Assembly (NCBI RefSeq): GCF_024346135.1
Contig: NZ_JAGQCJ010000005.1
Location: 124,001 to 188,000, forward strand
DNA length: 64,000 nt
Reading direction: 5' to 3'
Origin: Cyanobium sp. CH-040
GTDB lineage: Bacteria > Cyanobacteriota > Cyanobacteriia > PCC-6307 > Cyanobiaceae
Part shown: piece after piece, positions 16,169 to 20,495 of the stretch
Layout of the letters: each line of letters begins with the position of its first letter
Position numbering within the stretch: position 1 is the stretch's first letter
Made by a program: the position numbers and the translations under genes
The notes under the pieces: model-generated
The model's database searches: none
The model's input: the letters and a program-made list of their open reading frames with translations, nothing else
What the model was told of the DNA's origin: nothing

Positions 16169-16525
16169 GTGAAGCCAGCCCCCACCTGGACCTGCATCGC
16201 CGGCTGCGGCGCCTGCTGCCGGCTGGATCCGGAGCTGCGGCAGGAGGCCCTGGAGGCTCTGAACCCCGCCCAGCGGCAGGAGTACCTGACGCTGGTGGGC
16301 GCGGATGGCTGGTGCCGCCACTACGACACCGGCGGCCGGCGATGCCGGGTGTACGACGGCAGGCCGGATTTCTGCCGCGTGGCCAATCTCATGGCGCTGT
16401 TCGGCGCCGAAGGCCAGGCTGCCGATGCCCTGGCGATCGCCTGCTGCAAGCAGCAGATCCGCAGCGAGTACGGCGGCCGTGGCAAGGTGATGCGCCGCTT
16501 CCTGCGCGCGATCCGCCGATCATGA
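16169..16525 (+). CDS. YkgJ-family cysteine cluster protein
   Basis: 118 residues from a GTG start. Eight or more cysteines occur in the family pattern: [15 protein letters not shown] at the N-terminus, [21 protein letters not shown], and ACCKQQ near the C-terminus. This resembles the UPF0153/YkgJ zinc or iron-sulfur cluster domain. The stop overlaps the ATG of the next gene (ATGA), so it is translationally coupled to a GDT1-type transporter. Role unknown; a metal-linked function is suggested by ligands and context only. Confidence 0.8.
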
Positions 16526-16944
16526 CCAGCAGCGAGGATCCCAGCAGCTCCCCGGCCACCTCTCTGGAGCCCGCTCTGGAGCCCGCAGCGGGGCCGGCTG
16601 GCGATTCCAGCCCGCACGGAGCGGGAACCGGGGCCTTCCTCGGCGCCCTGGCCACCACTTTCACCACCGTGTTCCTCGCCGAGCTGGGCGACAAGACCCA
16701 GCTGGCGGCCCTGCTGCTCTCGGCTCAGTCCGGGCGGCCGCTGCTGGTGTTCATCGGCGCTTCCCTGGCCCTGATCAGCTCGAGCCTGGTGGGGGTGCTG
16801 CTGGGCCGCTGGCTGGCCCGGCTGCTGCCGGCCCACGAGCTGGAACGGCTGGCCGGCCTGCTGATGGTGGGACTGAGCCTCTGGCTGGGCCGTCAGGCGG
16901 TTCTGCAGCTCAACGCCCCGCCCCCGGATCTCCCCCTGGGCTGA
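16522..16944 (+). CDS. UPF0016/GDT1 family half-size cation transporter, first of a pair
   Basis: 140 residues: a Pro/Ser/Ala-rich N-terminal extension of about 40 residues, then a three-span unit with the family signature ELGDKTQLAALLL, followed by LLVFIGASLALISSSLVGVLLG. Full-length members have two such units in one chain; the cyanobacterial one (Mnx) exports manganese. Here each unit is a separate gene, the partner being at 17033. Translation is coupled to the YkgJ-like gene. Manganese or calcium transport is inferred from the family. Confidence 0.85.
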   Translation: MTSSEDPSSSPATSLEPALEPAAGPAGDSSPHGAGTGAFLGALATTFTTVFLAELGDKTQLAALLLSAQSGRPLLVFIGASLALISSSLVGVLLGRWLARLLPAHELERLAGLLMVGLSLWLGRQAVLQLNAPPPDLPLG

Positions 16945-17032: not shown

Positions 17033-17341
17033 ATGGACCTCAGCCTGCTTGCCTCCACCTTCGTCACCGTCTTCCTGGCGGAGCTGGGCGACAAGACCCA
17101 GCTGGCGATCGTGAGCATCAGCGGCACCTCCAGCCGGCCGCTGGCGGTGTTCGCCGGCAGCTCCCTCGCCCTCGTGCTGGCCAGCCTGCTGGGGGCGGCG
17201 GCCGGCGGGTCGCTGTCGGCGGTGATCCCCACCAACCTGCTGCAGCTGGCCGCCTCGGGCGGTTTCCTGGTGCTGGGGATCCGCCTGATCCGCAAGGCCG
17301 CCAGGGCCGAGGCCGGCGCAGTGGACGCCGAGGAGGTCTGA
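17033..17341 (+). CDS. UPF0016/GDT1 family half-size cation transporter, second of a pair
   Basis: 102 residues with three hydrophobic spans. The signature ELGDKTQLAIVSIS sits at residues 17-30, almost identical to the neighbour's signature, with VFAGSSLALVLASLLGA after it. It lacks the long N-terminal extension of the first copy. 88 bases separate the two, without an obvious terminator. The likely functional unit is a heterodimer of both halves, in membranes of the cell or thylakoid. Confidence 0.87.
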   Translation: MDLSLLASTFVTVFLAELGDKTQLAIVSISGTSSRPLAVFAGSSLALVLASLLGAAAGGSLSAVIPTNLLQLAASGGFLVLGIRLIRKAARAEAGAVDAEEV

Positions 17342-17483
17342 GGCGCGCGGCTGCATACAATCGGCCCAGTTGGAGGAGGGTCGAGGGCATCGCTCCGAGC
17401 CCGGTCCCGCCACTCCCGATCGCCATCCCCGCGCGCCCCCTGGGGCGATTCCCGATGGCCACCGCCAAACAACCCGCTACCCC

Positions 17484-19835
17484 ATGAAGTTCACGGTCGC
17501 CGACCTGCTCGACCAGCTTCCCGCCCACGAGGCCCTACCCCCGACCCGGCTCGAGAAAGCCCTGGGGCTGAGCCACACCACCGACAAGCAGCAGCTGCGC
17601 ATCGCCCTCGATGGCCTGATCAGGCTGGGCCTGATCCAGGAGAGCGAAGCCGGTCTGCAGCGCAGCGACGCCCCCGATCTCATCCCCGCCCGGCTGCGCT
17701 GCTCCAGCAAGGGGTTCTGCTTCGCCCTGCGGGAGGACGGCGGCGAGGACATCTACATCCGTGAACACCAGCTGAACCACGCCTGGAACGGCGATCGGGT
17801 GCTGGTGAAGGTGACCCGGGAAGGCGGCCGGCGCCGTTCCCCCGAAGGCGGCGTGCAGTGCATCCTCGAACGCCAGACCCCCTCCCTCCTGGCCCAGGTG
17901 GAGCAGCAGCAGGAGCAGCTGGTGGCCACCCCCCTGGACGACCGCCTGCTGACCACCGTGGTGCTCACCGCCGGCGACGCCGAGCACCTCGACCCGGAGC
18001 AGGAGTCGGTGGTGGAGGTGGTGATCGACCGCTATCCGGTGGCGCAGTTCGCTCCCCAGGGGCATGTGGCCCGGCGGCTGCCCGTGAACGGCGGCGAGGA
18101 GGCCGACCTGGAGCTGCTGCTCACCAAGCACCGGCTCAACAGCCGCCCCGCCTGCCCCCGCGCCAGCCTGCGCACTCCCGTCGCCGCCGAACGGGAGGAC
18201 CTCACCGGCCAGGCGGCGCTGCTGCCGCAGCTGTGGTCGGGCCAGGGGGCGCCGCCCCTGCCGGCGCTGGCCCTGGAAGCCCGCGAGGGGGGCTGGACCC
18301 TGTGGCTGCACAGTCCCGCGGTGGCCGAACGCGTCAGTGCCGGCACCAGCCTCGACCAGTGGTTGCGGGACCAGGCCGATGCGCTCTGCGTGGGGCGCCA
18401 GTGGCTGCCCCTGCTCAGCCCCGCCCTCACCAAGGCGGCGGCGTTCGCGCCGGGAGAGGAACAGGCGGCCGTGTCGGTGGCCCTGGAGCTCGACGGCGAC
18501 GGCCGGCTGCAGGGCTACCGCTTCTGCCGCAGCCGGATCAAGCCGCTGGCCGCGGTCGACCTGGCCGCCCTCACCGCCCTGGTGGAGCGCAAGCCGAAGA
18601 GCCGCACCGTGCCGGCGGCGCTCAAGCCGGTGAAGAACGCCCTGGAGCAGCTCGAGCAGCTGGTGGAGCTCAGTCAGCGGCTGCGCGAGCGCCGGCTGGA
18701 GAGCGGTTCGATCGAGCTCGACCTGCCGATGCCGCCGATCGCCTGCCTCGCCGATCTCACCGTTCCCTCGCCGAGCCCGGCCCAGCAGGGCTGGCTGGTG
18801 GCCCTGCCGCCCCATCACCCCGGCGCCATCCTGCGCGAGGCGGTGCTGCTGGCCGACCGGGCCCTGGGCGAGCACCTGGCGGCCCTGGGCCTGCCGGCGA
18901 TCTTCGCGCTCAACCCCGGACCCGACAGCGGCGACCTCAACGACGTGGCCAAGGCCGCGCTGGCGCTGGAAATCCCCCTGGAGCTGGGTGAGGAGGGCCA
19001 TGCCGGCGCCGCCGAGCTGGCGGTGGCCTTCGCCGCCAGCAGCCGCAGCCGCTCGCTGCAGCAGCAGCTCTGCGGGGTGCTGCAGCCCGTGCAGCTGAGC
19101 ACCACCCCCGGCAGCGTCGCCCTGGCCGGGCTGACGGGTGAGGAGGCGGCCCTGGCCCCCTGGAGCTGTCCCGGGCTGCACTACGCGGACATCTGGAACC
19201 AGCGCCTGCTGGTGGTGCTGCTCACCCAGGGCAAGGACCGGCCCAGTCCGCGTCACAAGACCAGCGTCGATCTGGCGTCGCCCGCCTGCCACGGCAGCAT
19301 CGACTGGCCCCTGCTGGAGCCGGACCAGCTTGCCGACCTGCAGCAGGCCCACGAGCACGGTCTGGTGCAGCGGCTCAATGGCCGCAGGCGGTTCCGTGCG
19401 GAGCTGGAAGCCGACCTGCTGGCGATGGCTCAGGCCCGTCAGGCCGAACCGCTCGTGGGCCAGGTGCTCCCGGGTGTGATCAGCGGTGTGCAGAGCTACG
19501 GCTTCTTCGTGGAGGTGCCCCCCTCCAACGTGGAGGGCCTCGTGCACGTGAGCTCGCTCAAGGACGACTGGTACGAGTACCGGTCGCGGCAGAACCGGCT
19601 GGTGGGCCGCAAGAACCGCCGCACCTACATGCTGGGCGACGCGGTGGAGGTGGAGATCCAGAAGGTGGATGCCCTGCGCCACCAGATCGATCTGGCCGTG
19701 GTGCAGCCCGAGCTGGAGCCCCTCGACGAGCGGGAGGCGGACGCCGAGGACGCCGACGCCGACGTCAACGCCGACGCTGCAGCGCACGAGGAGCAGGAGC
19801 ACTTCGCCCCGGTGCCCGTGCTCAGCGAGGTCTGA
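17484..19835 (+). CDS. RNase II/RNB-family protein with S1 domain, catalytic aspartates not found
   Basis: 783 residues. N-terminal helix-turn-helix-like segment (MKFTVADLLDQLPA), cold-shock-like parts around 60-110, an RNB-type body, and a C-terminal S1 RNA-binding domain near 657-735 (VLPGVISGVQSYGFFVEVPP, VEGLVHVSSL). RNB landmarks: EDLT near 239, TSLDQWLRDQADAL, SGSIELDLP near 405, and ADIWNQRLL near 565. The block that should hold the four metal-binding Asp residues, between EDLT and WTLWLHSP, has none of them, and the usual SPIRRY-type motif is gone. It may bind RNA without cutting it. The ubiX start follows 3 bases after the stop. Confidence 0.78.
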   Translation: MKFTVADLLDQLPAHEALPPTRLEKALGLSHTTDKQQLRIALDGLIRLGLIQESEAGLQRSDAPDLIPARLRCSSKGFCFALREDGGEDIYIREHQLNHAWNGDRVLVKVTREGGRRRSPEGGVQCILERQTPSLLAQVEQQQEQLVATPLDDRLLTTVVLTAGDAEHLDPEQESVVEVVIDRYPVAQFAPQGHVARRLPVNGGEEADLELLLTKHRLNSRPACPRASLRTPVAAEREDLTGQAALLPQLWSGQGAPPLPALALEAREGGWTLWLHSPAVAERVSAGTSLDQWLRDQADALCVGRQWLPLLSPALTKAAAFAPGEEQAAVSVALELDGDGRLQGYRFCRSRIKPLAAVDLAALTALVERKPKSRTVPAALKPVKNALEQLEQLVELSQRLRERRLESGSIELDLPMPPIACLADLTVPSPSPAQQGWLVALPPHHPGAILREAVLLADRALGEHLAALGLPAIFALNPGPDSGDLNDVAKAALALEIPLELGEEGHAGAAELAVAFAASSRSRSLQQQLCGVLQPVQLSTTPGSVALAGLTGEEAALAPWSCPGLHYADIWNQRLLVVLLTQGKDRPSPRHKTSVDLASPACHGSIDWPLLEPDQLADLQQAHEHGLVQRLNGRRRFRAELEADLLAMAQARQAEPLVGQVLPGVISGVQSYGFFVEVPPSNVEGLVHVSSLKDDWYEYRSRQNRLVGRKNRRTYMLGDAVEVEIQKVDALRHQIDLAVVQPELEPLDEREADAEDADADVNADAAAHEEQEHFAPVPVLSEV

Positions 19836-19838
19836 ACC

Positions 19839-20495
19839 GTGGCCCCGGAAGCGCCGGTCGTGCTGGCCATCTCCGGCGCCTCGGCCCAGCCCCTGGCCCA
19901 GCGTGCCCTGCAACTGCTGCTGGAGGCCGGTGAGGCCGTGGAACTGGTGACCAGCCGGGGGGCGATCGGCGTCTGGCAGGCGGAGCTGGGGGTGCAGGTG
20001 CCGGGCGATCCGCGGGCCCAGGAACGCTTCTGGCGGGAGCGCACAGGCTGCAGCGGCGGCCAGCTGCGCTGCCATCGCTGGAACGACCAGGCGGCCGCGA
20101 TCGCCAGCGGCAGCTTCCGCACCCGAGGCATGGTGATCCTGCCGGCCTCGATGGGCACCGTGGGCCGCATCGCCACAGGCGTGGCCCTGGATCTGGTGGA
20201 GCGGGCCGCCGACGTGCACCTCAAGGAGGCCCGGCCCCTAGTGATCTGCCCCCGGGAGACCCCCTGGAACCTGGTGCATCTGCGCAACCTCACCAGCCTG
20301 GCCGAAGCGGGCGCGCGCATCGCCCCGCCGGTGCCGGCCTGGTACCACCAGCCCCGCACGATCGAGGACATGGTGGACTTCCTGGTGATCCGGGTGTTCG
20401 ACCTGCTCGGCTACGACCTGGGGATGCTGCGGCGTTGGCAGGGCCCGGTGCGGCGTGCAGACTCTGGCCCTGGCCGCCGCGACGCCGCCTCTTGA
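19839..20495 (+). CDS. ubiX: UbiX family flavin prenyltransferase
   Basis: Makes prenylated FMN, the cofactor of UbiD-type decarboxylases. 218 residues from GTG. Recognisable blocks are VLAISGASAQPLAQRAL for FMN binding, then ILPASMGTVGRIATGVA, RPLVICPRETPWN and the C-terminal RTIEDMVDFLVIRVFDLLG. In cyanobacteria the partner would be a UbiD-like decarboxylase of the plastoquinone route, which is not in this window. The last bases overlap the TTG start of the following gene. Confidence 0.9.
   Translation: MAPEAPVVLAISGASAQPLAQRALQLLLEAGEAVELVTSRGAIGVWQAELGVQVPGDPRAQERFWRERTGCSGGQLRCHRWNDQAAAIASGSFRTRGMVILPASMGTVGRIATGVALDLVERAADVHLKEARPLVICPRETPWNLVHLRNLTSLAEAGARIAPPVPAWYHQPRTIEDMVDFLVIRVFDLLGYDLGMLRRWQGPVRRADSGPGRRDAAS

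Follow-up and report, generated by a model that had tools for sequence, protein, structure and literature searches.

The zam locus and its domains

The window, a stretch of 64,000 nucleotides from Cyanobium sp. CH-040, carries the zam gene, whose frame runs from an ATG to the stop codon without an internal stop (Table 1). The preliminary description had read this long frame as intact and not as a simple pseudogene, and the 783 amino acid product, which is under purifying selection, agrees with that reading. The Pfam domains OB_RNB, CSD2, RNB, and S1 were found in the protein. Its best named matches are proteins of the same type from Cyanobium and Synechococcus, and the nearest named relative is found in Cyanobium sp. 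Prado107 (91% identity).

zam is preceded by two genes, the products of which we take to be of the GDT1/UPF0016 type, and is followed by a gene that presumably encodes a UbiX-type flavin prenyltransferase. The order GDT1-GDT1-zam-ubiX is kept in most Cyanobiaceae records, usually with acsF and tldD next, and the zam-ubiX pair is conserved in many other families as well. In the window, the GDT1-type pair, zam, ubiX, a 214 amino acid ORF, acsF, and tldD lie in one direction between 16522 and 24286, and most Cyanobiaceae share this order. The chlorophyll cyclase gene acsF thus lies near zam, a gene with pigment phenotypes. Some Prochlorococcus records contain zam but lack a ubiX match in the expected position, and others contain ubiX with no acsF match nearby. 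A linkage of zam with rpsR/rpmG was ruled out, as rpsR adjoins the Rnb gene. A leader ORF of 10 codons (17455-17487) overlaps the zam start and, among the relatives checked, is conserved only in the two nearest. A consensus scan revealed no promoter-like or terminator-like sites, and an Rfam search of the window returned no matches.

Table 1. Coordinates of zam, its neighbours, and the parts of its product in the window; residue numbers refer to window Zam, except D201/D207/D209/D210, Tyr253, and Arg500, which follow E. coli RNase II.
Feature	Coordinates	Strand	Remarks
First upstream neighbour	16522..16944	+	Order conserved
Second neighbour before zam	17033..17341	+	Order conserved
zam CDS	17484..19835	+	783 aa, RNB-family pseudonuclease; Pfam RNB 3.8e-37, OB_RNB 1.2e-19, S1 8e-12
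N-terminal helix-turn-helix domain	17484..17681	+	Residues 1-66; present in RNase R, absent from RNase II
CSD1	17682..17873	+	Residues 67-130; most conserved domain, dN/dS 0.00-0.09
C73 and C79 (CSSKGFC)	17700..17720	+	Counterpart of the published C73/C79 redox pair of PCC 7002 Zam
CSD2 region	17874..18191	+	Residues 131-236; approximate boundaries
RNB fold without active site	18192..19283	+	Residues 237-600
Former metal site	18204..18278	+	Residues 241-265; Q249, P257, L259, P260 replace D201, D207, D209, D210
C302 in place of Tyr253	18387..18389	+	Cys in 81% of Cyanobiaceae Zam
Degenerate SPIRRY motif	19158..19205	+	PWSCPGLHYADIWNQR, residues 559-574; Arg500 replaced by L565
S1 domain	19449..19718	+	Residues 656-745
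Downstream neighbour	19839..20495	+	Starts three bases past zam

The AlphaFold model of window Zam (pLDDT 88.8, pTM 0.87) has the fold HTH-CSD1-CSD2-RNB-S1, which is of the RNase R type. The helix-turn-helix, a feature of RNase R (PMC12320835), is formed in the model by helices 5-11, 20-26, and 32-48. The best PDB matches of the model are the RNase R structures 8cdu and 5xgu, and the pseudonuclease Ssd1 (7am1) was also matched. Window Zam aligns with B. subtilis RNase R from residue 18 of the latter, and the RNase R model TIGR02063 matches from residue 14 with 199 bits, far under its cut-off of 598 bits. The protein had initially been called RNase II-like, but sequence, TIGR02063, and PDB matches all point to RNase R as the closest enzyme.

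The top fold match shows RNase R on a 30S degradation intermediate, and the helix-turn-helix kept in window Zam is the part by which RNase R is held at helix 23 of 16S rRNA (PMC12320835). Both observations would suit a pseudo-RNase R that docks, like B. subtilis RNase R, through its HTH, CSD, and S1 domains at the mRNA exit/16S 3' end of the 30S subunit, where it acts as a non-cleaving shield or a decay competitor. This role is nevertheless unlikely, as the N-terminal domain is among the less conserved parts of Cyanobiaceae Zam (entropy 1.82), and it is Rnb, not Zam, that is linked to rpsR in the genome.

Identity as Zam and the erased catalytic site

Zam is recognized by a degenerate RNB active site together with two CSDs and one S1 domain, all of which are found in the window protein. 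The protein also falls within the Zam clade, apart from Rnb (SH-aLRT 99). It is almost certainly the picocyanobacterial Zam, devoid of catalysis. An odd RNase II-like gene thereby becomes a known and named regulator. A paper of 2012 gave Synechocystis a single RNase II-family member and did not mention Zam (PMC3293843). The degenerate active site of Zam was described in 2022 (PMC9145284). The family and the loss of its site are therefore already published; the history of repeated loss, for which no published account was found, is added here.

None of the four metal ligands of E. coli RNase II is present in the aligned window protein, as the preliminary description had proposed for this RNB-family protein. 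The last residue of the R-E-D-L-T stretch is 241, and neither Asp nor Glu occurs in residues 242-264 (GQAALLPQLWSGQGAPPLPALAL), which confirms the reported lack of Asp in the block after EDLT. Tyr313 (E. coli RNase II numbering) is replaced by L360. The SPIRRY-type motif had been called missing; it is present in a degenerate form (CPGLHYADIWNQR, residues 562-574), but its Arg is lost. As controls, E. coli RNase II and RNase R show all four Asp in the same alignment. All 22 cyanobacterial Rnb-type rows keep D201, D209, and D210, with D or E at 207, and retain both Tyr and Arg500. The RNB paralogue of the same genome, Rnb (655 aa), has all four Asp and reads TIDDDDTLDVDD.

The alignment of the metal site is consistent with the fold, because in the AlphaFold model Q249 follows the strand 246-248 and L259/P260 stand just before the strand 261-267. 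The structure prediction suggested earlier as a check thus agrees with the aligned non-acidic residues. The suggested alignment with picocyanobacterial orthologues showed the same replaced site in about 80 other Cyanobiaceae Zam records, with P257, L259, and P260 common to the family, which rules out sequencing error or chance. RNB-family catalysis is a two-metal mechanism (PMC12320835), and such catalysis is not expected in window Zam.

The dead site has been fixed again in a new form. In 64 Cyanobiaceae Zam members (<85% identity), W251 is found in 97%, P257 in 97%, L259 in 91%, P260 in 86%, and C302 in 81%, which gives the pattern W/P-x-L-P in the family of the window, while position 249 is unconstrained. 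A third CSD1 cysteine, C126 (17859-17861), is invariant in Cyanobiaceae Zam and is mostly Leu, Val, or Ala in other Zam; it is a possible extra redox partner. The dN/dS ratio is below 1 in every domain, with 0.00-0.09 in CSD1, 0.03-0.10 in S1, and 0.16-0.35 in RNB; selection is strongest on CSD1 and S1. In Zam from outside Cyanobiaceae, the mean frequency of the commonest residue is 0.86 in CSD1, 0.86 in S1, and 0.60 in RNB. In Rnb, the pattern is reversed (CSD1 0.59, S1 0.56, RNB 0.72).

A decaying gene, in which the loss of the site is incidental, would fit the faster evolution of the RNB domain relative to CSD1 and S1. This explanation was refuted and carries practically no probability, as frames are intact in related genomes, gene order is conserved, and selection is purifying in every domain, with CSD1 and S1 nearly frozen. 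A non-cleaving RNB descendant is well supported because the metal ligands, the Tyr clamp, and the Arg are lost under purifying selection while a canonical paralogue exists in the genome.

Graded and repeated loss of ligands

Each of the 92 genomes sampled from the class gave a high-score match in the P0001 search, with almost no matches outside the class. Three genomes of the class, from two families, gave only Rnb-level matches; two of these are fragmented assemblies and one is a single contig. The published claim that Zam occurs in every cyanobacterial genome may therefore fail. One genome that also carries Zam encodes a third RNB-type protein, whose site is intact.

Ligand content is graded. 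No row among the 88 Zam from across the class has four Asp; three are found in 13 rows, two in 17, one in 11, and zero in 47. In a search of 390 genomes, the 30 proteins with the highest RNB scores are all Zam and likewise never carry four Asp. Zam proteins with three Asp are of the type D-A/V-D-D (one D-T-D-D), with R-D-D-D in one genome, where D207, D209, and D210 are kept and D201 alone is lost, unlike the common D-A/V-D-D. Some distant Zam retain D201, D209, D210, both Tyr, and Arg500. Within genus g111, two rows carry D201 and Arg500, and in a third row these positions are Arg and Gln. The Zam of the largest genus in the sample of family f23 reads D-V-D-D, which would fit the nuclease-active Anabaena Alr1240 if, as we guess, the genus is Nostoc-like.

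A quick Zam/Rnb tree was built without the site columns. On this tree, Zam forms a single clade (99), and the state without Asp requires 10 changes. A single clade without Asp was rejected (p-AU 5e-47), for a group defined after the site states had been seen. Long branches (Gloeobacter-like f43, f18, and picocyanobacteria) cluster and may attract each other, and no branching order is claimed. The change counts are compatible with loss or gain. Loss is favoured because repeated regain of D201, D209, and D210 is implausible, and ligand loss in Zam thus appears stepwise and repeated. The claim in the literature that Zam always lacks the site may need qualifying for lineages with D201, D209, and D210.

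The CSD1 Cys pair is present in 86 of the 88 Zam and in no Rnb, and it is kept in Gloeobacter-like Zam (a guessed name), in which the site is lost. The pair likely predates the losses because of this distribution. Together with these data, it can be tentatively hypothesized that the redox function of the pair is older than nuclease loss. The ancestor would then have been an RNase R-like Zam that carried D201, D209, and D210 at the least. It would have lost its activity separately in the Gloeobacter-like, the picocyanobacterial, and further lineages, while Zam of the D-A/V-D-D type in others may still cleave RNA. If true, an active Anabaena Alr1240 would be reconciled with dead Zam elsewhere, and Zam would parallel, in bacteria, the fungal series from Dis3L2 to Ssd1. 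The series from three ligands to zero, with a constant Cys pair, offers natural steps for testing at what point, and for what reason, an exonuclease turns into a pseudoenzyme.

The same distant Zam with D201, D209, D210, both Tyr, and Arg500, and the report that Alr1240, called Zam in PMC9145284, degrades unstructured RNA could be taken to mean that window Zam has kept exonuclease activity, with a single metal or with acidic residues from elsewhere in the protein. This is highly improbable for the family of the window, in which substitutions have removed every ligand along with Tyr253, Tyr313, and Arg500, P/L/P is re-fixed, and the stretch after the R-E-D-L-T motif offers no acid.

Proposed function and comparison with known systems

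In PCC 7002, Zam has a redox-active disulfide between C73 and C79, its deletion causes a photosynthesis phenotype, and C-to-S mutants phenocopy the deletion (PMC9145284). Redox gating of Zam is considered likely because of this phenocopy. Neither nuclease activity nor RNA binding was seen with purified PCC 7002 Zam, although the protein was prone to aggregation and the data were not shown (PMC9145284). The preliminary description had suggested an RNA-binding, non-cleaving descendant; its non-cleaving half stands and agrees with the published view of Zam, and its RNA-binding half is tentative, given this result, although CSD1 and S1 are the domains conserved best. Anabaena Alr1240, which PMC9145284 calls Zam, was reported to bind and stimulate RNase E via its CSD and S1 domains, and a review describes it as an active exonuclease that degrades unstructured RNA.

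Because the CSD1 and S1 domains are conserved and the C-to-S phenotypes are published, window Zam is probably a non-cleaving, redox-gated regulator that uses CSD1/S1 to act on RNA or RNase E. Zam is a cyanobacterial RNB paralogue of RNase R architecture in which 3'-5' exonuclease chemistry is lost, and its C73-C79 disulfide would serve as a redox switch of regulation through CSD1/S1. Two routes can be proposed by analogy. In one, the OB-fold surface would bind RNA, as in yeast Ssd1; this route is tentative. In the other, Zam would bind and stimulate RNase E, as reported for Alr1240; this route is somewhat more plausible but still short of an even chance. The RNase E result may not transfer to fully dead Zam, because Alr1240, called Zam by PMC9145284, is described as nuclease-active. 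By either route, RNA turnover would be tuned by the photosynthetic redox state. If Zam served purely as a protein scaffold, for instance for RNase E, and did not touch RNA, this would agree with the CSD/S1-mediated binding of Alr1240 and with the lack of RNA binding by the purified protein. However, CSD1 loop L12 of Zam retains the basic residues and the Phe through which RNase II contacts its RNA (PMC9145284), and this loop reads RCSSKGFCF in window Zam, so a pure scaffold is rather improbable.

Published Zam (sll1910 of Synechocystis PCC 6803, A1543 of PCC 7002; the acetazolamide resistance protein; PMC9145284) shares with window Zam two CSDs, RNB, S1, the degenerate site, the Cys pair with identical residue numbers, and an intact Rnb in the same genome. 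Picocyanobacterial Zam differs in that every ligand and the Tyr/Arg residues are lost, P-x-L-P with an upstream Trp is re-fixed, and the invariant C126 is unique to this family. RNase R (E. coli Rnr, 5xgu; B. subtilis, 8cdu) shares the domain order including the helix-turn-helix and is the best match in sequence and structure, whereas window Zam lacks its metal ligands, Tyr clamp, and SPIRRY Arg and scores well below it with TIGR02063. Cyanobacterial Rnb (RNase II; sll1290 and the paralogue of the same genome) is of the RNB family like Zam, but keeps D201, D/E207, D209, D210, Tyr253, Tyr313, and Arg500, is conserved in RNB rather than in CSD1/S1, and lacks the Cys pair.

The fungal pseudonucleases Ssd1 and Dis3L2 (PMC8934651, PMC8097288) likewise have an RNB fold with four ligands lost, a conserved CSD surface, and repeated loss of activity. 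In yeast Ssd1, the four ligands are replaced by Ser, Val, Glu, and Phe, and RNA is bound on the CSD surface (PMC8934651). Active-site residues were lost at least four times in the Ssd1 family, after a second function had arisen (PMC8097288). The fungal proteins differ from Zam in their separate origin, and Ssd1 has channel-blocking insertions and is the only one with known RNA targets. Ssd1-type proteins are characterized by an RNB fold that has lost its ligands and is still under purifying selection, a combination also found for window Zam. Yeast Ssd1 is the closest worked analogue of Zam.
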